A DNA stretch of 26,344 nt from a virus: positions 1 to 26,344 of IMG/VR virus record IMGVR_UViG_3300032118_000051; one strand, written 5' to 3'. Positions 2,268-25,762 of this stretch are shown here, piece after piece; position 1 is the first letter of the stretch, and every line of letters begins with the position of its first letter. A program made the translations under genes and the position numbers. Under the pieces are notes generated by a model. The model saw nothing but the letters and a program-made list of their open reading frames with translations. It searched no databases and was not told the DNA's origin.

Positions 2268-2468
2268 ATGATTAGAGAAGTAGTAAAGCTAGCAATAGAA
2301 ACTAGAACATACTATAGAGCTATCTTAGATTGTGGACATATGTATACACGTCTACTTCCTGTAAAGGATAGAATTAAGAAAAGATATATTTGTCATTCTT
2401 GTAAAAATCAAGTTGAACGTGCTGAAAGAGGCGCAAAACCAATGTTGAAAAGAAGGAAAAACAAGTGA
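2268..2468 (+). CDS. Small basic zinc-finger-like protein, 66 aa
   Basis: A 66-aa basic protein. It carries DCGH (C22, H24) and CHSC (C42, C45), which could together bind one zinc ion. A basic loop (VKDRIKKRY) separates them and the tail is very rich in Lys and Arg (MLKRRKNK), so nucleic-acid binding is plausible. It starts two bases after the interrupted frame upstream, and its TGA overlaps the GTG start of the next gene. Family and exact role are unknown. Confidence 0.7.
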   Translation: MIREVVKLAIETRTYYRAILDCGHMYTRLLPVKDRIKKRYICHSCKNQVERAERGAKPMLKRRKNK

Positions 2469-2797
2469 AAAAAACAAAGTTTAAAGGCGGAGCTGTTAGA
2501 GGAAAAGAGAAGTTCGACCGCTTTCCTCACCGATTTGATTTAATCGATCCGGCCGCTGAGAGACGAATAGCAGAGACTTACGGGGAAGGTGCTGCGAAAT
2601 ATGGATATTGTAATTATAAGAAAGGTATTCCAGCTACTAACCTATTAAATCATGCTATGGATCATATTAATCGTTATAGACTTGGTGACAATCAAGAAGA
2701 TCATTTAGCTCATGCTTGCTGGAATCTTATTACTATTATGTATAATGAAGCTCATAATCCTAATATGATTGATATTAACTTCAGCTTGAAGAAATGA
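2465..2797 (+). CDS. Probable dATP/dGTP diphosphohydrolase (DUF5664-like)
   Basis: A 110-aa all-helical protein resembling the N-terminal domain family of phage dATP/dGTP diphosphohydrolases (DUF5664). Diagnostic stretches are HRFDLIDPAAERRIAE (22-37), EGAAKYGYCNYKKGIP (41-56), LLNHAMDHINRY with a GD after it (60-75), and DHLAHACWNL (79-88). Members are thought to clip purine deoxynucleoside triphosphates; in some phages such enzymes adjust the dATP/dGTP pool, including in phages that replace adenine with 2-aminoadenine. The metal ligands would be the Glu, Asp and His residues in these helices, but I assign them by analogy. The GTG start overlaps the previous stop. It probably belongs to the phage nucleotide-metabolism set. 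Confidence 0.75.
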   Translation: MKKTKFKGGAVRGKEKFDRFPHRFDLIDPAAERRIAETYGEGAAKYGYCNYKKGIPATNLLNHAMDHINRYRLGDNQEDHLAHACWNLITIMYNEAHNPNMIDINFSLKK

Positions 2798-2898
2798 TTA
2801 AACTCCTAATCGAAAACTTAAAGTTTAGATGGATAGAATGGACCGATAAAAGACCTCTTATAGGCGAAAAGTTATTTGCTGAGATAGAAAGACTCTAG
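2794..2898 (+). CDS. Hypothetical microprotein, 34 aa
   Basis: A 34-codon frame starts in the ATGA that ends the diphosphohydrolase gene and ends at TAG 2896-2898. The product is a basic/aromatic helix-like peptide (LLIENLKFRWIEWTDKRP, then GEKLFAEIERL). It is too short to classify. Its exact overlap with the upstream gene and its stop codon lying inside the CTAG that also ends the opposite-strand gene argue that it is real. It is the last gene of the rightward block. Confidence 0.5.
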   Translation: MIKLLIENLKFRWIEWTDKRPLIGEKLFAEIERL

Positions 2899-5800
2899 CG
2901 CATTCTCATTTTTCTAAAACCCATAGGCTTCTTTTCAGGATAGTCTTGGCTCATTCCGGCTAATGAGGCTCCTGCCATAGCTGTATCTAAACCAACACTA
3001 TGAGCAAAATCTGGTTCAGCATTAACTAAATCATTTAAATCTTGAATAAATATTGGAACAAACTGTTTTCCAATTTGACTTTGGATATTAGTTTTTTCTC
3101 CATACTGAGTAGTCATATTACCGGCCGTAGCTGGATTATCACTTTTACCAGTGAACTTAGATGTTAAAATAGTATGTGCAAAGTTAATCATAGGAGCTTC
3201 TTTACTAGCTAGAAATCTTCCAGCGATTTCTAATCTACTTGTTGGCACTTTAGAATCTGTCTTACCAGCTAGGAATCTAGCAGTAGCTACAACATACTGT
3301 TGAAATCCAGCCCAGGGATCAATAACCTTATTTCCAAATCTAGATTTCATAAAGTCTGATGATAAGATATTAGTACTAATCTTAGCTCCCGCCAGAGAAC
3401 CTAGAGTGTCAATCGTAGTTCCTAAAGCCGCAATTCCTAGCAAACTTTTCAGACCATCTAAACGCATTCCTTTAGGCAGACTTGTGTAAATTTTAGGATT
3501 AGTAAACATTTGAATACGAGAAGCCATCATTCTAGGGGACCATAATACAAGATTAAGTTCATTAGTCATCTTATTTAACATTCCCAAATCTCCTCTACCA
3601 GTGGAAGTATTGATATAACGAGCTATAGCTTTAGCTTCTTTAGTTGGGACCGTTGCCGTCTTTGCACTACCATCTTTATTTTTACCAATCTCAATAGTTT
3701 CAGTAGCTTCATATCCTAAAGCTTTAGCCTGCTTAGTCATACTCTTATATACATCAAAATCTAATTTATTCAAGAAGCCATTATAGGCTCTCTGTGATGC
3801 GGCCGATGCCATAGGAATTCCACTAGCTCTAGGAATATTACCAATATAGCTATTAAGAAACTCCTCATCAGATTCTAATACACTACCAGGCTTGCGAATA
3901 AATAATCCAGCTTCTCTTGATTCCAGATACTGAGGATCACTATGGATAGCATCCATTGATGCTTCGTAAAATTCTTTATTACCAAAGAATTTAAACATAT
4001 CACGAAATGCAGGATAGAACTCTTTTCTGGCAATCATACCAGCTCCATGTCGTAATGGAGCCGCTAGACTGAGCATATTTTGAAGGGATTTCATTGTATT
4101 AGCTAGTTTAGATACTTTAAGTCCAACAGCTCCAATACCCCCATGAAGCTCTGTAATCTTACTACCAAATCCATTTCCAAACACATTATCTAGAACATTC
4201 AATTCCGACCTTACAGGAGTCTTTTCACCATTCATAAGCTTGAATAATGCAGTATAACCTCTAGCTTTTTCACCTTCTGTAATTTGAGCGCGTTTAATAG
4301 CTGTAAACAGAGCATCAGCTTCTGCTTTCTTTAATCCTAATGCTTCACCTGGTTCTGATTTTTCAAACTCGCCTCTTAATGTGGATAGGCTCTTAGCGGC
4401 ACCAATAGAACCTTCTTCTTTAACTCCTGCAAAAGCAGCAAATCTTCTAGCTCTTTCTACTTTATTAATAGCTTGTTGTTCCTCATTAGATGCTTTAGCT
4501 TCTTCTAAGGCTGAGAATAGCTTCTTTACGGCTGATTCAGTAGTTCTTTTTCCATCTGGTTTATCACCTGGAGGAACTCCGCCTTGTCCTTTTCCTCCAG
4601 CTCTTGACTTAATTCCCGTTCCGCTGAGAAGGTCTTCTGTAGTGCCTTCTCTCCCCCTAGACTCTTTATATGCTTGTAATACTTTTTGTATTTCTCCATT
4701 GTAGAGGCCGGTATTTTTATCTGCGATTGAGTTGAGGATGTTGTCTTGAGCTTCGACTGACCTTCTTGCTCCAAACTTGCCATAAATATCTCCTAAACGT
4801 TTTGTGAAAGATTCATTATGGCCGGCTCGTTCCGGCTCGATATGAGCCATTTCATGAAGAATAGTATGTAAAATATTAGCTGATGCTTCATCAGGACTCA
4901 TCCTTTCAATAGCAATAAAAGGATTAATTAAAATAGCAGACTTGCCACTTCCAGGATTTGGAATGTGAATTCCATGAAGCTTATCATCGAAAATGATACC
5001 AATTTTCTCTAAACGGTCAGTCCATATTTTATTTCCAACAACTGTTATAGCCTCTTTTAATGTTCCAGCTATGTTTCCAGCTAAAGTTTGAAATGCTGTA
5101 TCACTTGTAATCTGTTTCATCTCAGCAGGAGTTATCTGACCTTTAGGATCATATATAGCTATTTTATGCCCAAATGTATTTGGAAATTCGCCTTTACCAA
5201 CATTAATTTCTTGCATAGAGTTATAAAGCTTTTTTAACTCATCTACTCTCTTACCAATACTAGGTTTAATGATATTTTCATCAATGTATTTATCAATTAT
5301 TTGTTGGGTGGAGCCTCGAATTGTCTCTCTATTAGCTGTAAATGGATAATCTGGATGACCCTCTGGAACTTTTGATTTAATATTAACTAATAATCTGCCA
5401 GGAATTCCATGTAATTCTTCATATCCACTTCTACCTTTTCCCTGCCATAATCCGTTATTTAAAATTTCATATCCAACACCCTGAGACGAACCATATTTTG
5501 TTCCTTCTGGAACTATTAACTCTACATTAGCAAAGTCACCTGAAAGTTTAGTTATATCAGCTTTATTTAAATCAATATCAGATTTATGGGTTTCAAAGTT
5601 CGCTTCATTTCCTTCATATCTTTCATGTTTTAAATTTATTTTACCTTTAATACCTGGAGAATTTTTTGCTAGATTTTTAGCAAATTCATCTGCATCATAA
5701 AATCCTTCTTCTTTAGGAACATAAGTTCTAACAGTAGTTCCAGTTTTATATTCAGGACGATCTGTCTCATATATTTTAGTTTTAATATCAACGCCTTTTA

Positions 5801-7895
5801 ATAGCTCAGCAGGAGTCCCACTAAATTTATGTTCTAATAATTTACCGTTCTCTCTAACAACTGAAGTAACTTCAACTCTTTCTCCACCTAGTAATGGAGC
5901 GGCTTTAGCTAGTCCGAATCCACCAGCCGCATCGACATCATTTCTTTTACCAGATGATCCCAAATCAGTAAAAACTGACTGTAATTCAGCCTTAGTCAGT
6001 CCTTTACCATTATCTTTAACTTCAACGTATTTCTTTGGTCTATTTAAAGTGACATTAATTTCTCCACTAGTATCTAAATGACGAATTGCATCTACTGAAT
6101 TTTGTAATAATTCTTTAGTAGCAATTCCGGTAATATTACCGGCATATAAAGATGAACCTAATACTTTACCTAAAGACTCTACATCAGCCCCAATCTTGAC
6201 TCCACCACTAGTAGTTTTTGCAAACTGGGGTTCTTCAGAAGGCTTAGCATATTCTGGAGGTTTCCATTCCTCAGCTTTACCTAAATCAATAGCTTCTTCA
6301 GCAGGATATCTTCTAGACTCTTCTTTACCAGTTCTAGCTTTCATTCTATCCATGAAATTTTGAGCATCTTTAGACATAGTACCAGATGATTCAGTAGCTC
6401 CTAATTCATTTAGTTTATCTCCAATAGCTTTCATAGCTCTACCAGTTAGTAATCCTTTAGATTTATTTACTGCTAAATCTTGAACTAGATTCTTTCCTTC
6501 AAGATCAGTAACTATTTTAGCAACTGCTATAGGCTCACCAGCTTTATTACGATACACAACATGCTTATATAAATCTTTATCTTCTACTGATAATCCAGGC
6601 TCTCCTGAACCAGCCTTTCCTAAAACTCTGCCTACATATTCAGGACTTTCTGGATGACCACTTCCACCATAGTTAGCTAGTAAATCTTCAAATGATGGTT
6701 CAGCAGCTTTAACTTCAGCAGGTTTAGCGTATTCTGGTGGAGTCCAAGCTTCACCTTTCTGATCTGCTAACATCTTATTTCTAATATCTTCACCCCTCAT
6801 AGGAATAGCATCTTCGGGAGTTTCTGGTACTTCAATACCTCGTTTATTTAGTTCTTCAGGACCAGTATGTGTATATCTCTTACCATCTTCAACAATATTA
6901 TACATAGGCTGGCCTTGCTCATTGAGAGCAAGAAATTCAGCTTGAGGCTTAGGAACTTCAGTAGCAGGCATTTCTTTACCCATATTAAATCTCTTTCTAG
7001 CTAATTCATAAATAATATCATCCTGACTTTTTGCAGGAGCAGACTGTCTAACAGTTTCTTCTGGAGTTAAATGCTCAGCAGCAAGATTAGGACTACGAGT
7101 AGGCAAAGCCTTTTCAGACTCGAATGGATTTACAAAAGGTTGTTTAACAGCAGAAGGTTCTTCAGGTTTTACTGATTGTATAAATTTACTTATCTCATTC
7201 ATCTTAGCATCAGGATTCTGTTTTATGAAATCAGCTACTTTTTGTCTAGTGAATGTAACTTTAGCAGGAGTCTCAATATTAAGAGGTTCATTAGATTTAT
7301 ATGGAATTTCTTTAGATTGACGAATAGAAGGTTCTTCTACTGCTGTAGGAGCATGTGCTTTCATTCCTAATGCTCCCATACCAGCTTCTAATGCACCAGA
7401 TATAAATTCACTAAAATCTCTATTTTTTACACCTTCATAGCCATGCTTAACACCTTCAGCCGCTACGGGAACAGATAAAGCTCTAGTTCCAGTTCTCAGA
7501 GCTGATGCTACTCTAGGTAATACAGACTCAGCTAATGCTGCACCTTCACCGGCTCCAGCAAATGTCAGATTTAAAGGGGATGTTAAACCAGAAGTAGCAT
7601 GACCTAAACCTTCAATATAAGCAGCTAGAATATTTCTTGTTTTGGAAGATTCATTACCTCTTATACGTGAAGCAACAGACTCAGCAGCTCTAGTCGGAGC
7701 TTCTGTTAATGGAGATGAAGCCCGATCCCAAGCTTTTTTTAATGCACTAGGTTTATCAATTTCTTCAGGTTTTACTGGAGAAGCATATTCTGGTGGTTTC
7801 CATCCCCCTTCTCCATCATCTTGTGAATCATCTATAGCTGTAGCATAGCTAGGAGGTTGCCATTCAGGAGCATCTTCGTAATTAACTTTACGCAT
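2895..7895 (-). CDS. Giant polyvalent-type virion protein: GNAT-like, Hsp90-like ATPase, zinc protease
   Basis: A 1666-aa multidomain protein, last gene of the late block. Visible modules: an N-terminal hydrophobic/disordered part; a GNAT-like segment (about 430-520); a GHKL/Hsp90-type ATPase with N-box ELLQNSVDAI (595-604), DNGKG (628-632) and GGFGLAKA (658-665), followed by FTANRETIR (852-860), which resembles the Hsp90 middle-domain arginine motif; a zinc metallopeptidase motif HEMAH (1014-1018) with GHNESF after it (1025-1030); and a long conserved-looking helical C-terminus (about 1255-1666) with a hydrophobic stretch near 1481-1505. This mix is typical of phage polyvalent proteins, thought to be packaged and injected with DNA to disarm host functions. 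It directly follows two ejection-like genes; its ATG abuts the preceding TAG, with AGGA just upstream. Enzyme activity is inferred from motifs only. Confidence 0.8.
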   Translation of the reverse strand: MRKVNYEDAPEWQPPSYATAIDDSQDDGEGGWKPPEYASPVKPEEIDKPSALKKAWDRASSPLTEAPTRAAESVASRIRGNESSKTRNILAAYIEGLGHATSGLTSPLNLTFAGAGEGAALAESVLPRVASALRTGTRALSVPVAAEGVKHGYEGVKNRDFSEFISGALEAGMGALGMKAHAPTAVEEPSIRQSKEIPYKSNEPLNIETPAKVTFTRQKVADFIKQNPDAKMNEISKFIQSVKPEEPSAVKQPFVNPFESEKALPTRSPNLAAEHLTPEETVRQSAPAKSQDDIIYELARKRFNMGKEMPATEVPKPQAEFLALNEQGQPMYNIVEDGKRYTHTGPEELNKRGIEVPETPEDAIPMRGEDIRNKMLADQKGEAWTPPEYAKPAEVKAAEPSFEDLLANYGGSGHPESPEYVGRVLGKAGSGEPGLSVEDKDLYKHVVYRNKAGEPIAVAKIVTDLEGKNLVQDLAVNKSKGLLTGRAMKAIGDKLNELGATESSGTMSKDAQNFMDRMKARTGKEESRRYPAEEAIDLGKAEEWKPPEYAKPSEEPQFAKTTSGGVKIGADVESLGKVLGSSLYAGNITGIATKELLQNSVDAIRHLDTSGEINVTLNRPKKYVEVKDNGKGLTKAELQSVFTDLGSSGKRNDVDAAGGFGLAKAAPLLGGERVEVTSVVRENGKLLEHKFSGTPAELLKGVDIKTKIYETDRPEYKTGTTVRTYVPKEEGFYDADEFAKNLAKNSPGIKGKINLKHERYEGNEANFETHKSDIDLNKADITKLSGDFANVELIVPEGTKYGSSQGVGYEILNNGLWQGKGRSGYEELHGIPGRLLVNIKSKVPEGHPDYPFTANRETIRGSTQQIIDKYIDENIIKPSIGKRVDELKKLYNSMQEINVGKGEFPNTFGHKIAIYDPKGQITPAEMKQITSDTAFQTLAGNIAGTLKEAITVVGNKIWTDRLEKIGIIFDDKLHGIHIPNPGSGKSAILINPFIAIERMSPDEASANILHTILHEMAHIEPERAGHNESFTKRLGDIYGKFGARRSVEAQDNILNSIADKNTGLYNGEIQKVLQAYKESRGREGTTEDLLSGTGIKSRAGGKGQGGVPPGDKPDGKRTTESAVKKLFSALEEAKASNEEQQAINKVERARRFAAFAGVKEEGSIGAAKSLSTLRGEFEKSEPGEALGLKKAEADALFTAIKRAQITEGEKARGYTALFKLMNGEKTPVRSELNVLDNVFGNGFGSKITELHGGIGAVGLKVSKLANTMKSLQNMLSLAAPLRHGAGMIARKEFYPAFRDMFKFFGNKEFYEASMDAIHSDPQYLESREAGLFIRKPGSVLESDEEFLNSYIGNIPRASGIPMASAASQRAYNGFLNKLDFDVYKSMTKQAKALGYEATETIEIGKNKDGSAKTATVPTKEAKAIARYINTSTGRGDLGMLNKMTNELNLVLWSPRMMASRIQMFTNPKIYTSLPKGMRLDGLKSLLGIAALGTTIDTLGSLAGAKISTNILSSDFMKSRFGNKVIDPWAGFQQYVVATARFLAGKTDSKVPTSRLEIAGRFLASKEAPMINFAHTILTSKFTGKSDNPATAGNMTTQYGEKTNIQSQIGKQFVPIFIQDLNDLVNAEPDFAHSVGLDTAMAGASLAGMSQDYPEKKPMGFRKMRMR
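6240..6269 (-). repeat. W-x-P-P-x-Y-A repeat, copy 4
   Basis: Encodes EWKPPEYAKP (residues 543-552) between the GNAT-like segment and the Hsp90-like ATPase of the giant protein. It is nearly identical to copies 2 and 3, in DNA as well as protein. Confidence 0.75.
6720..6749 (-). repeat. W-x-P-P-x-Y-A repeat, copy 3
   Basis: Encodes AWTPPEYAKP (residues 383-392), just before the GNAT-like segment of the giant protein. Confidence 0.75.
7776..7805 (-). repeat. W-x-P-P-x-Y-A repeat, copy 2
   Basis: Encodes GWKPPEYASP (residues 31-40) in the disordered N-terminus of the giant protein. Confidence 0.75.
7842..7865 (-). repeat. W-x-P-P-x-Y-A repeat, copy 1 (divergent)
   Basis: Encodes EWQPPSYA (residues 11-18), the most diverged of the four copies, at the extreme N-terminus of the giant protein. 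Confidence 0.65.
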
Positions 7896-8759
7896 CTATT
7901 GTCCTGCGTGATTCTGATTCCAGTCATCTACTTTATCAGCAGGAATTTGATATGATTGACCATCCTTACCTTTAACTGTTACAGTCTTAGCTCCTGCACC
8001 TCTTTTAGTTGTTACAGTTTTTTTAGTTCCATCAGGATTTAATTCGGTAGTAGTTTCAGTAGTAGCACCTTGTTCTGTTTTCTTTTTTAGCTCATCAATC
8101 TGATCTTGATGCTGTTTACTAGTTATATCAAATTGATGCTGTTTATTCTCTAGCTCTAGTTTATGTCTTTCCTCCATAGCCGTGGCTAAATCTTTATGAG
8201 CTTGTAATTGAGCTTCTGCATTTGTACCTTTTTGTGTTAGAGCTTGCTGTGCTAACTCTAACTTACTATTGGACTCATCAATCTTACGCTGCAGATCACT
8301 CTTTTTAAGTTCATCTATCTGATTACTCTTTTCTTGATTCAGCTTCTGTTGAGCATCTTTGATATTTAAAGCTTGCTGACCCATTTTACCAGTCTGATTT
8401 AATCTTTGACTTTCTAAGTTATTCTCTTGCTGTCTTATTCCAAGTTCACCCTTTTGATAGCCAGTCATCTCATTAGGATCTCTAGCCATTACAGTATTCA
8501 TACCTTGAGTATTAGGCTGTCCTTGATTCTGTTGCTGTCTAGCACCTTCTGGATCAAATAATGATCTCATTCTCATACCTTGCCTAGCATTCAAATCAGC
8601 ATCAAATAAAGCTTTATTCTTATAATCTATCATTTCTCTGTCTTTTAGCTGATTTACAATATTTAGTGGAGTTTCATAATCTGGTCTTTGCTCTCCAACA
8701 GCTCCAAAAATGCCACTACCACCAGTAGGGTTTTTGCCGAGATTTTCCATGAAAGTCAT
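7896..8759 (-). CDS. Coiled-coil, Gln-rich putative ejection (internal virion) protein
   Basis: A 287-aa hydrophilic protein. The middle (about residues 95-225) is one long Gln/Lys/Glu-rich coiled coil (for example LQRKIDESNSKLELAQQAL). It is followed by a Thr-rich linker (TTETTTELNPDGTKKTV) and a short C-terminal domain (GKDGQSYQIPADKVDDWNQN) like those seen at the ends of other phage structural proteins. It lies between a 279-aa Ala/Ser/Gln-rich protein and the giant multidomain protein. The trio is reminiscent of the internal ejection proteins of podoviruses (T7 gp14-15-16, P22 gp7-20-16), though I see no direct sequence match. The start at 8759 has AGGA about seven bases upstream. Confidence 0.65.
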   Translation of the reverse strand: MTFMENLGKNPTGGSGIFGAVGEQRPDYETPLNIVNQLKDREMIDYKNKALFDADLNARQGMRMRSLFDPEGARQQQNQGQPNTQGMNTVMARDPNEMTGYQKGELGIRQQENNLESQRLNQTGKMGQQALNIKDAQQKLNQEKSNQIDELKKSDLQRKIDESNSKLELAQQALTQKGTNAEAQLQAHKDLATAMEERHKLELENKQHQFDITSKQHQDQIDELKKKTEQGATTETTTELNPDGTKKTVTTKRGAGAKTVTVKGKDGQSYQIPADKVDDWNQNHAGQ

Positions 8760-8767
8760 AAATAATC

Positions 8768-9607
8768 CTACGATCTGTGGCCAAAGATTGCGTTACTTAC
8801 AGTAGCTTGTTTTCTCTGATTGAGTTCTTGCTGTCCTTGACCTAACTGAGATGCTTGAACTACTTGATTACCAAATGTATGAGTTAAAGCAGGTGTAGTT
8901 CCATATAGAGATGTCTGACCTTGTATAGCACCTAATTCATTACTCTGCTGCATTCTCTGAGCTTCTAATGCTCTATTTGCATTACCTTCATCTGACCTAT
9001 TAATGGCATCAGAATTGCGTAAATCAACACCTGTTCTAGCAGCATTTTCAGATTGCGCTGCAGAAGAATACATTGGAGCTACTGCTATTCTATTACTAGC
9101 TACATTCTGAGCAATACCAGCATTAATATCTTGATTACCCCTAGATACTGCATCAGATAATCCACGAGTAAGTTTAGCTGTTGCAGCAGTATAATTAGGA
9201 CTATAACCGCCCTGCAACGATTTACTACGATCTATATTTTGTTGAGCATTAGCATAAACTGATCTGATAGGAGAAATTCCTCTAGACCTTATATCTGCAA
9301 TATCACCAGCAGAATATCCACCACTAGTTGCTAAATCTGATAAGTTTGCTAATGATCCAGATACTTCAGCAGATCGACTATATTTCGCTAAATTAGCATT
9401 TGTTCTCTCAGCTGTTACTGGATTTGCTTGATTTTTAGCAAGTATATCTTGATAGTTTTGCATAATCCTATCATAATCGCTAGCTTGCTGGTCAGCAGCG
9501 GCTGTGAATGTAGATGGATTACCAAATAATGATGTTGGCGAAGTTGACGATCTTTGCTGACCAACAGATTGCCAACTTGGAACAGTTTGAGCTGATGCGA
9601 TCCCCAT
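8768..9607 (-). CDS. Putative ejection/internal virion protein, Ala/Ser/Gln-rich
   Basis: A 279-aa helical, low-complexity protein rich in Ala, Ser, Asn and Gln (for example LAKNQANPVTAERTNANL, NANRALEAQRMQQSNEL). The middle (residues 80-160) carries Gly/Ser turns between helices. No enzyme motif, signal peptide or clear membrane span is visible. Proteins of this composition just upstream of a coiled-coil protein and a very large protein are typical of the DNA-ejection set of short-tailed phages, so a role inside the virion is likely. The start overlaps the upstream stop in TAATG and is preceded by a strong ribosome site (GGAGGGAG). Confidence 0.6.
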   Translation of the reverse strand: MGIASAQTVPSWQSVGQQRSSTSPTSLFGNPSTFTAAADQQASDYDRIMQNYQDILAKNQANPVTAERTNANLAKYSRSAEVSGSLANLSDLATSGGYSAGDIADIRSRGISPIRSVYANAQQNIDRSKSLQGGYSPNYTAATAKLTRGLSDAVSRGNQDINAGIAQNVASNRIAVAPMYSSAAQSENAARTGVDLRNSDAINRSDEGNANRALEAQRMQQSNELGAIQGQTSLYGTTPALTHTFGNQVVQASQLGQGQQELNQRKQATVSNAIFGHRS

Positions 9608-18179: not shown

Positions 18180-19433
18180 CTAGTATCCAGAAGGGATAGC
18201 TAATGCGTCAATATATGCTGTAGCAGCAGGATTCAAAACAAATGTCTGGAATCCAACCACCATATAGAAAATATCAGCCGCAGCAACTCCACCAGATGCA
18301 CCCCTTAGTTCAAAAATACGACGACCATCTGATGTATAGAAGCCAATTGGCAATATTTCAGCACGTCCCCAAACAGAACTAACAACAAAATCAATACGTT
18401 TCTTAGACCAGTTAAAGTGGGTCTTAATAGGAGCACCAGCAAGCTGCATATTATCACCAAAATACATGTTAAGAGCTTCATCTTTAGGTGCTTTATGAAT
18501 AATAGAAATTAACTGCCCAATTTCCTCATAAGCTTGTGCTTGACAAGGATGGGTCCATGCCGTAGGGTCAAAATTATTATCAATACCAACCCTATTACCA
18601 ATCTTATTAATAGCTAATCGAGGTGAAGGTAAAGATAAAGGAGCATTATTACCATTAACACGGTTAGACCTAATTTCAGGAGTAGTAGCCCTATCATAAC
18701 CTAACCAAGTACCAGTAGAAGCATTACTGTGATGATACTGAACACCATATAGACCAGGTAGAGCAGTAGGATTGGAAATACCATCAACAACAAGAACATC
18801 AGTAGCAATAGCACCTGAAATAGCTGGAGTAACATCAATAATCTTATTTTCAACGTCCCACTTAGTAATAACCCCTTTACCTCTAAATGTAGCTAATGTA
18901 GCATCATAAACTTGAACGACCTGATCATATCGAACTAACCTAGCTCCATATTCAGTATCAAGAGTATAAGTATCTACACCAGCACTAGTTGATACAACAC
19001 TAATGGTTCCAACCTGACCAGTACCAGTACCTTGTAATTGAGCATCTAACTGTCGCTTAATTTCAACAGTAGCACCTGCCGTTAATCTCCTAACTGCGTT
19101 AATAACAGATTTACGACGGTCATCAGTAGACCACTGAGTTAATTTAGTATATTCAATATTCTCTGATAGAAACACAGGTCGTAGAACGGCCTTATCCCAA
19201 GTTGGACCGCCACCACGTCCCATATCTCCACCATCAGGATTAAAATATTGGAATCTACCACCAGGACGTAATTCCATAGGTGCTCTCATTTCACGATATG
19301 AAACTACCTCTACATCACGCTTTTTAATATTACCTAAGAAACCATCATCACTTTCAAACACAGTTGTTACTTTCGGAAGAACCTTTTCAAGTTCTGTTCC
19401 GGCAACAACAGATTCTACAACAGCACCTGGCAT
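18180..19433 (-). CDS. Major capsid (coat) protein, 417 aa
   Basis: Called from order (portal, scaffold, then this), length and composition. It has a mixed alpha/beta sequence with an N-terminal arm (MPGAVVESVVAGTELEKVLPK), an extended region rich in Gly (RPGGRFQYFNPDGG), then ENIEYTKLTQW and a helix (RRKSVINAVRRLTAGATVEI), like the E-loop and spine helix of HK97-fold coats. An insertion of strands lies in the middle (for example VVSTSAGVDTYTLDTEYG). The C-terminal part has YEEIGQLISIIHKAP and a final strand block. No protease domain is present. A good ribosome site (TAGGAG) precedes the ATG, and a small hairpin covers the preceding stop. Confidence 0.8.
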   Translation of the reverse strand: MPGAVVESVVAGTELEKVLPKVTTVFESDDGFLGNIKKRDVEVVSYREMRAPMELRPGGRFQYFNPDGGDMGRGGGPTWDKAVLRPVFLSENIEYTKLTQWSTDDRRKSVINAVRRLTAGATVEIKRQLDAQLQGTGTGQVGTISVVSTSAGVDTYTLDTEYGARLVRYDQVVQVYDATLATFRGKGVITKWDVENKIIDVTPAISGAIATDVLVVDGISNPTALPGLYGVQYHHSNASTGTWLGYDRATTPEIRSNRVNGNNAPLSLPSPRLAINKIGNRVGIDNNFDPTAWTHPCQAQAYEEIGQLISIIHKAPKDEALNMYFGDNMQLAGAPIKTHFNWSKKRIDFVVSSVWGRAEILPIGFYTSDGRRIFELRGASGGVAAADIFYMVVGFQTFVLNPAATAYIDALAIPSGY

Positions 19434-23715: not shown

Positions 23716-24071
23716 TAAGTTCCTTCTTTCTCAACAATTCCCATTTCAGCCTCTAAACGTTCAGTAGTTATTTGGTCAGTAACAAAATCAGGTTTACCTA
23801 AACTCTTAGACTGTTTAAGAATTTTAGCTCCTTCTCTATCTCTAGCTTCTAATGCAGCACGACGGCGACTAAATAAAACTGAAGTTTGAGCAATTTGATT
23901 CATTTCAACTGGAGGAGCCTCAAACTCTTTAGGCTTAATAATATTCAATAACATATCAGTTAACTGTTTCTTCTCAGCTCTTTCATATTCAAGTTGCTGC
24001 TTAAGAGTCTCACAACTTTTACAGATATCGAAATCAGTAATACCAAATAGTCGAAGAAGAAGCCGAATCAA
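23715..24071 (-). CDS. Hypothetical coiled-coil protein with CxxC, 118 aa
   Basis: A 118-aa helical protein. Its start overlaps the TerL stop as ATGA. The N-terminus is basic and hydrophobic (MIRLLLRLFGITD), then CKSC (C17, C20), a coiled coil (TLKQQLEYERAEKKQLTDML), and a second charged helix (SRRRAALEARDREGAKILKQ). The CxxC could bind metal or form a disulphide. It is commonly placed after terminase genes in related phages as far as the pattern suggests, but I cannot name a family. It may assist packaging or head assembly. Confidence 0.6.
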   Translation of the reverse strand: MIRLLLRLFGITDFDICKSCETLKQQLEYERAEKKQLTDMLLNIIKPKEFEAPPVEMNQIAQTSVLFSRRRAALEARDREGAKILKQSKSLGKPDFVTDQITTERLEAEMGIVEKEGT

Positions 24072-25762
24072 TGCGTCCTCCTTGCAAAACGAGAGCGTCT
24101 AGAGATTGGAATACAATCATTCAATGTTAACTCATTTTGACGCTCAATCGCTTCCATTTGTCGATAGAAACCTGTCATATCACCTGACTCCTCGAATCGC
24201 TTATTAACTTGATCAATTAATGCAGCTTTATTAAGAGAGCCTATTTCACCATTAAGAAATCGTTTAGCAGTTTTACAGAAATATCTTAAACAGTCAATAG
24301 GATCATCACCTTCAAACTCTGCAAGATCCTCAATCTTTTTCTCGTCATAAATACACATTGGAATAGTATCAATTAAAACTTTACAGTCATCAAAAATTTG
24401 TATCACTGGTAAATTATCTTCTTCTGGTTCATCATAGAACTGTTTCTTATAATTATCTAACGCGGCGGGACCGTAGTTTCGATAAATTTCCTGAGATAAC
24501 GCTAAATCGTAGAATTCACCTTTAGCTCGTAAACTTGTACGTTTCTCCCACCTTAACATATCATGTATTAATTGTAATCCGGCTACGCGACTTCCAGGAG
24601 TATTCTCTGAACTGTTTGGAACAAGATCAGAGTATTTCTGAAATTCATCGCAAATTAATTCACCACCACGAGACTGCCAAGCACTACCGCATAGAACTGT
24701 ATGAACTGGTATTTCATTATTTTCATTATGTATCTCTCTTATTTCACTAGCCCAATATGGAATATCTCTTCCATACCAAGCTCTTTCTCTGTATATGTAA
24801 ACTTTATGATTTGGTGCAATAGCTCCCCACATCGCATAACACATAGCTCGTTTTCCCCAGTCAATAGACAATATCTTCGGCCACCATTCAGGTATTTGGA
24901 ATCTTTTAATAACATGCAAAGCATTATCTGGTTCACCAGGGAATCGCATCGGTCGGAAAGTGGTGAAAACACTTCCCTTATAAGCGTGCCAGTCTCCATA
25001 TCTCTTTGCTTTGTATTCAGCTTCACTAACAGATTTTAATATCTCTAACTTCTTAACATATAATGGATCATATTCCATTCCATAAGGATTATCCTCTGCT
25101 TTAGCTGGAATAAAAATTCTAAGAAGTCCTGTATTAATATCTCTAATAATTGTATGCCCATCTTCATTGGGCCTAACAAATCTATTGAATACAAATGTCT
25201 GTCCAACTCCTCCGGGATTACTTCCATTTCTAACAATAGCAATATTAAAGCTGCTGCTAGGCCGGACACGACTACCAACCATGTAATGATATGGATATGC
25301 ACTGAAGTGAGTAAGTTCATCAAAAGCACAGTAATTATACTGAGATGAGTCATACATTGAAATATCAGAATCATGTTGGACGTGTCCAAAGTCCTGATAT
25401 GAATTAAATTCCGGCCATTCCCAACTATGTTTTTGGTCATTGTATTTAGCTCCAGTCTTAGGATAATATTCTTTACTTAAACGTATGATTTCACGTTCAA
25501 GGTCAGGAAACTTACGACGGAATATAATACCTTTGTATCCTCTAAATTTATAAAACCCTCGAAATAAGGGTAATAGTGTGAGTATCCAAGACTTACCACC
25601 GTATGCTGCTCCACCATAGAGTGCCTCAAAAACTTGATCTGGTAATCTTAGAAGTTCTTCTTGAACTTCATGAGGTTTAATATTTTTCTCTCGAAGAACA
25701 TCTTCAAACATCCCATTACCGGGATCACTTGATATTATATTATTAGCTATGGAGATAGGCAT
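24068..25762 (-). CDS. terL: Terminase large subunit (packaging ATPase/nuclease)
   Basis: The motor that cuts concatemeric DNA and pumps it into the procapsid. The ATPase domain has Walker A GGAAYGGKS (50-58), Walker B YCAFDE (144-149, with D148 and E149), and a coupling motif SNPGG (181-185). The nuclease domain has ILSIDWG (298-303, D301) and DDPIDCLRYF (486-495, D487 or D490) as acidic metal ligands. At the place of the second nuclease motif the sequence is VLCGSAWQSRGG (356-367), lacking the usual Asp. Length 564 aa is normal. No small terminase gene is recognised in the window; it may lie to the right or be one of the small upstream genes. Confidence 0.9.
   Translation of the reverse strand: MPISIANNIISSDPGNGMFEDVLREKNIKPHEVQEELLRLPDQVFEALYGGAAYGGKSWILTLLPLFRGFYKFRGYKGIIFRRKFPDLEREIIRLSKEYYPKTGAKYNDQKHSWEWPEFNSYQDFGHVQHDSDISMYDSSQYNYCAFDELTHFSAYPYHYMVGSRVRPSSSFNIAIVRNGSNPGGVGQTFVFNRFVRPNEDGHTIIRDINTGLLRIFIPAKAEDNPYGMEYDPLYVKKLEILKSVSEAEYKAKRYGDWHAYKGSVFTTFRPMRFPGEPDNALHVIKRFQIPEWWPKILSIDWGKRAMCYAMWGAIAPNHKVYIYRERAWYGRDIPYWASEIREIHNENNEIPVHTVLCGSAWQSRGGELICDEFQKYSDLVPNSSENTPGSRVAGLQLIHDMLRWEKRTSLRAKGEFYDLALSQEIYRNYGPAALDNYKKQFYDEPEEDNLPVIQIFDDCKVLIDTIPMCIYDEKKIEDLAEFEGDDPIDCLRYFCKTAKRFLNGEIGSLNKAALIDQVNKRFEESGDMTGFYRQMEAIERQNELTLNDCIPISRRSRFARRTH

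Follow-up and report, generated by a model that had tools for sequence, protein, structure and literature searches.

The window, a 26,344-base virus record from IMG/VR, carries on its minus strand a structural gene block that includes a terminase (24068–25762, assigned with PHROGs), a capsid gene (18180–19433; PHROGs support a head protein), a portal-sized gene of 804 aa and a 622-aa gene with a weak PHROGs match to an internal virion protein. The final gene of this block (2895–7895, minus strand) is a single open frame with an ATG and encodes a giant polyvalent-type protein of 1666 aa. Upstream of it, on the same strand, lie two genes for candidate internal virion proteins: a directly adjoining 287-aa gene (7896–8759), whose homologues are likewise placed upstream in six loci, and a 279-aa gene (8768–9607), whose homologues show this arrangement in 16 fetched loci. 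By position, the three products look like internal or ejection proteins of podovirus-type phages. The portal and major capsid proteins had no match among annotated phages, so no isolate supplies virion data. On the plus strand, the window also holds a DUF3987 gene (648–1892; Pfam E 2e-11), presumably helicase/primase-like, and a gene with a dATP/dGTP diphosphohydrolase N-terminal domain (2465–2797; Pfam E 5e-16), for which a modified-purine or nucleotide-pool role is possible.

Comparison with relatives delimits a conserved N-terminal segment in the giant protein (residues 10–190; 7326–7868), followed by a GNAT-like segment recognized by eye (residues 401–545; 6261–6695) that is common only to L022 among the fetched loci and has no match in Pfam. 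The protein continues with a GHKL/Bergerat ATPase domain (residues 568–732; 5700–6194), a transducer or Hsp90-middle-like domain (residues 733–897; 5205–5699), a linker of helices in the predicted model (residues 898–961; 5013–5204), a zincin protease domain (residues 962–1098; 4602–5012) and a conserved C-terminal backbone (residues 1123–1656; 2928–4529), all on the minus strand. All motifs of the original prediction were found on that strand within the single 1666-aa frame: ELLQNSVDAI (595–604), DNGKG (628–632), GGFGLAKA (658–665) and GTTV (719–722) in the ATPase domain, PFTANRETIR (851–860; 5316–5345), which contains R857, in the transducer, and HEMAH (1014–1018; 4842–4856) and GHNESF (1025–1030; 4806–4823), which holds the third ligand, a histidine, in the zincin. 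A WxPPxYA repeat occurs in four minus-strand copies, two at the N-terminus (7842–7862 and 7782–7802), one directly preceding the GNAT-like segment (6726–6746) and one directly preceding the ATPase domain (6246–6266). It is also found in L002, L003, L009 and L022, and in a shortened form in L005, and is possibly a docking, packaging or cassette-junction tag.

The ATPase domain matches Pfam HATPase_c_3 (E 7e-9, exceeding its cut-off) as well as HATPase_c, and has the N-box Glu and Asn, DxGxG and glycine box of the GHKL superfamily, together with its Bergerat fold and transducer. A profile built from ten sequences of the family matched Hsp90 chains in the PDB (E 2e-15). Together with the residues retained across relatives, these matches place the motifs beyond chance resemblance. 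The predicted structure of residues 568–1099 (AlphaFold2 with six input sequences; mean pLDDT 75.7, pTM 0.56) recovers both the Bergerat ATPase with transducer and a zincin of the SPRTN/Wss1 type, with most zincin blocks at pLDDT 80–95 and a poorly modelled ATP lid (pLDDT <50, at 35–40). Foldseek placed Hsp90/TRAP1 at the top (E about 1e-13). Model residues 1–312, aligned by VIA, matched Hsp90 N-terminal and middle domains (Z 17.5 over 277 residues, r.m.s.d. 3.8), TopoVI-B (Z 17.4 over 290 residues, r.m.s.d. 4.6) and GyrB (Z 16.5 over 273 residues, r.m.s.d. 5.3). Because the fit to TopoVI-B and GyrB is as good as that to Hsp90, the unit is a GHKL ATPase with transducer, and Hsp90 is not singled out; judged from the model, a DNA clamp and a protein clamp would suit it equally. 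The description as an apparently complete Hsp90-like unit stands for the N-terminal and middle domains with the catalytic Arg motif, which the protein shares with Hsp90, HtpG and TRAP1, but not for the Hsp90 C-terminal dimerization domain: none was recognized beyond one weak HtpG row (Z 3.2), and in the giant protein the zincin comes next. In a viral structure library the best match was A0A516L4L2 (TM 0.60 by query, 644 alignment columns against the 532-residue model), which probably spans the entire ATPase–zincin model; Hsp83 and RIIA proteins ranked after it.

The SprT/Wss1-type assignment of the protease is likewise borne out by the fold match and by the retained HExxH and third ligand on the following helix. 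The zincin part gave VIA matches to SPRTN (Z 7.9, 99 residues, r.m.s.d. 3.1), Wss1 (Z 7.7, 97 residues, r.m.s.d. 2.5), the Aquifex protein 1oz9 (Z 7.6), which we take to be YbeY-type, selecase (6.6), BepA (6.2), abylysin (6.1) and CapP (4.4); zincins filled the top rows, from Z 7.9 to 4.4, and unrelated rows reached about 4 or less. Sequence matches in the PDB to the zincin profile numbered three, each weak and each to a zincin. Pfam WLM matched three of ten family members (best E 5e-4), L079 reached 19.9 bits against a cut-off of 26, none of these matches exceeded the cut-off, and the window protein had no WLM match. The domain resembles SPRTN, Wss1 and the minigluzincins abylysin and selecase in fold and ligands, but differs in its fusion to a GHKL ATPase and, in some relatives, in a Glu third ligand. 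A second model, of the zincin with the C-terminus (pLDDT 59.7), showed no confident fold and no recognizable ejection-protein match for the C-terminal backbone, so that the label ‘ejection protein’ rests on gene position.

Scans of viral contigs, the last with patterns for the ATPase motifs alone, yielded 23 distinct giant proteins with the ATPase, the window protein counted (1320–3673 aa if complete). E595, N599, D602, D628, the glycine box, K664 and R857 are kept in 23/23, with one protein having Glu in place of G659. Although the last scan relied on ATPase motifs only, all 22 proteins uncut by a contig end have the zincin, with HExxH and third ligand intact; 14 have His as this ligand and 8 have Glu, an alternation that a zinc ligand would allow. 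At least 22 different giant proteins of phages thus carry the domain pair. L003 and L005 match the N- and C-terminal parts of the giant protein (67% and 60% identity, respectively, in the C-terminal alignment), yet have neither ATPase nor zincin. Since such close relatives share the flanks and lack both domains, the ATPase–zincin unit is a swappable cassette, and in the more distant L025, L026 and L078–L081 it sits within other backbones. Pfam LPD38 is present in L078; the window protein itself has no Pfam LPD or polyvalent domain. Among 50,697 records of annotated phages, tblastn found no full-length relative, and matches covered the ATPase alone or the ATPase with part of the transducer.

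A first scan of genome contigs with a narrow alignment found nothing; with a broader alignment it found 42 bacterial loci, mostly in Myxococcota or ‘Deltaproteobacteria’ MAGs and in Nannocystis pusilla, often with several per genome. These free-standing proteins (about 840–1860 aa where complete; for example, Nannocystis L033) have the order of the phage cassette, namely GHKL domain, transducer with NxxR, and HELTH...GHDEEF, but lie outside any giant phage protein and have a stretch of roughly 350 residues between transducer and zincin. Their profile matches that of the phage family at 99.4% over 262 columns covering the N-terminal and middle domains. Against the phage profile their zincin scores lower (about 17–23 bits in some members), and kinship there rests mainly on motif and order. 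An SNF2 helicase gene lies upstream in 6/6 loci examined (L028, L029, L033, L042, L044 and L055), fused to an Eco57I-type methylase domain in four (L042, L055, L029 and L044); an SNF2–methylase module is also widespread in polyvalent proteins (PMC5512222). Such loci are possibly mobile or defence loci; PADLOC, run on L033 and L036 proteins, gave weak GHKL matches to TmtA at most and no defence assignment. The L044 and L053 genes, from MAGs labelled Klebsiella pneumoniae, cluster inside the Myxococcota-like clade, and these MAGs are probably mislabelled. On a Neisseriaceae MAG contig (L027:1–2277), ATPase–transducer and zincin are split over two adjacent reading frames, perhaps owing to a phage contig or a frameshift.

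With its several unrelated enzymatic domains (ATPase and protease) and cargo that differs among relatives, the giant protein agrees with the polyvalent proteins of Iyer et al. 2017 (PMC5512222), which are giant multidomain phage proteins with swappable enzymatic cargo, zincin metallopeptidases and, as in L078, LPD38. The fusion in a polyvalent-type protein proposed originally is thus upheld, and so is the view that the pair is unusual: GHKL and Hsp90 terms are absent from the text of that census, and the open-access literature, covering GHKL proteins with a metallopeptidase or WLM/SprT domain in phages, Hsp90-like virion proteins and phage SPRTN, gave no account of the pair. Judged by the open-access literature searched, this is a polyvalent-type protein with a so far undescribed ATPase–protease pair.

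Its conservation in at least 22 giant phage proteins and a bacterial family makes it probable that the pair is a genuine ATP-controlled protease, which phages swap in as cargo. As a whole, the reading that the cassette (residues about 568–1098) forms one ATP-controlled protease, likely ejected with the DNA and acting early, is given a probability of roughly 0.5. The GHKL domain would bind ATP, whereupon two cassette copies might shut into a clamp, with the transducer and its R857 completing the ATP site; movement might then be relayed through the helical linker to the SPRTN/Wss1-like zincin, which would cleave a protein that the clamp holds or threads. That two intact active sites are always paired, in phages and bacteria, argues for control of proteolysis by ATP state. 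The polyvalent virion protein would carry the cassette as swappable cargo, and since its conserved ends seem to belong to internal (ejection) proteins, the cassette most likely enters the cell with DNA and acts early, where it could strip host proteins off the incoming DNA or cleave a defence protein. Packaging and ejection are suggested by gene position and polyvalent-protein features. This reading is favoured by the folds, by active sites that are complete in all 23 ATPases and all 22 zincins, by the domain order shared with bacterial proteins near SNF2 helicase genes, by the cassette-less L003 and L005, by LPD38 in L078 and by the conserved neighbours. Against it stand the poorly modelled ATP lid, the C-terminal backbone without a confident fold and zincin Z values that are modest at 6–8; moreover, with their long stretch before the zincin, the bacterial homologues need not share a direct mechanical coupling.

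One variant, which we regard as possible, is that a GHKL–transducer dimer encircles incoming DNA, as in TopoVI-B, GyrB or MORC, while the SPRTN-like protease clears host proteins bound to that DNA; the standing of this variant overlaps with that of the ATP-controlled protease because it is a sub-case of it. The near-identical Z values for TopoVI-B and Hsp90 do not discriminate here, since all GHKL-transducer proteins have one fold, and the giant protein has no identified DNA-binding segment. We nevertheless lean towards DNA-bound substrates, given that the best zincin matches are the DNA–protein-crosslink proteases SPRTN and Wss1 and that methylase–SNF2 helicase genes lie near the bacterial homologues. 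A strong rival, if on balance an unlikely one, is that the zincin has its own giant protein as substrate and, as the virion matures or once inside the cell, cuts it to free its domains, while the ATPase acts separately or times the cut. Self-processing has been proposed for polyvalent metallopeptidases, with DdrB processing in phage P1 as precedent (PMC5512222), and the WxPPxYA repeats do lie at domain junctions; yet zincin-less L003 has the repeat and zincin-less L005 its shortened form, and the constant presence of an ATPase partner, seen in the free-standing bacterial proteins too, points to a role beyond self-cleavage. With self-processing equally open, the original proposal that the protein cuts a host defence protein is not supported as worded, nor is the designation ‘chaperone’, given that TopoVI-B and GyrB match as well as Hsp90. 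A role as chaperone or unfoldase, maintaining the giant protein or its companions in a state fit for tail passage, would draw on the Hsp90 similarity, but appears improbable: L003 and L005 have the same backbone without the cassette, which is therefore not needed for ejection in general.

It is similarly improbable that an RIIA-type counter-defence ATPase was fused to polyvalent domains by happenstance, even though the GHKL domain is related to that of phage RIIA. PHROGs matched the giant protein to RIIA families (E 4e-9), RIIA proteins made up most of the tblastn matches listed among annotated phages, and the profiles agree at 98.9% over 169 columns; this match, however, ends at the ATPase domain, and seven RIIA-type proteins checked have no HExxH. 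In the tree RIIA forms a single clade (100/100) with the giant-protein family outside, its exact placement being unsure because of its long branch. RIIA is also stand-alone and usually next to RIIB, which adjoins it in 5/6 fetched annotated RIIA loci (the sixth stops at RIIA), whereas the giant gene has no RIIB beside it, its adjacent ORFs being that at 2465–2797 (plus strand) and the 287-aa gene, which has no PHROG match.

An ATP-controlled protease of this kind, if real, would add another route coupling ATP to proteolysis, a GHKL clamp with a protease, delivered by phage at the onset of infection; to our knowledge, the energy-dependent proteases of bacteria rely on AAA+ ATPases. More tentatively, phage-ejected proteins and bacterial methylase–SNF2 loci may share a widespread, undescribed class of ATP-gated proteases in which an Hsp90/topoisomerase-type clamp, instead of an AAA+ ring, controls a SPRTN-like zincin. 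The cassette also allows the role of injected polyvalent proteins to be tested in a defined way, and connects phage RIIA-like ATPases, polyvalent proteins and a bacterial methylase–helicase locus.

Further features were seen in the phage relatives. Where the ATPase–zincin cassette otherwise sits, L005 has an ART-like segment recognized by eye (L005:7081–7370; ITLYRGE...WYSDDP), in which Pfam found no ART. The giant phage protein at L080:3822–10634 also contains a pyridine-nucleotide-disulphide oxidoreductase domain (Pfam E 3e-9). A deoxyhypusine synthase gene, of which the window has none, lies immediately upstream of the polyvalent gene in three relatives (L005:4976–5989, L002:4946–5971 and L003:4973–5989), recognized by Pfam DS (E 1e-36) in L005 and assigned by sequence likeness in L002 and L003.
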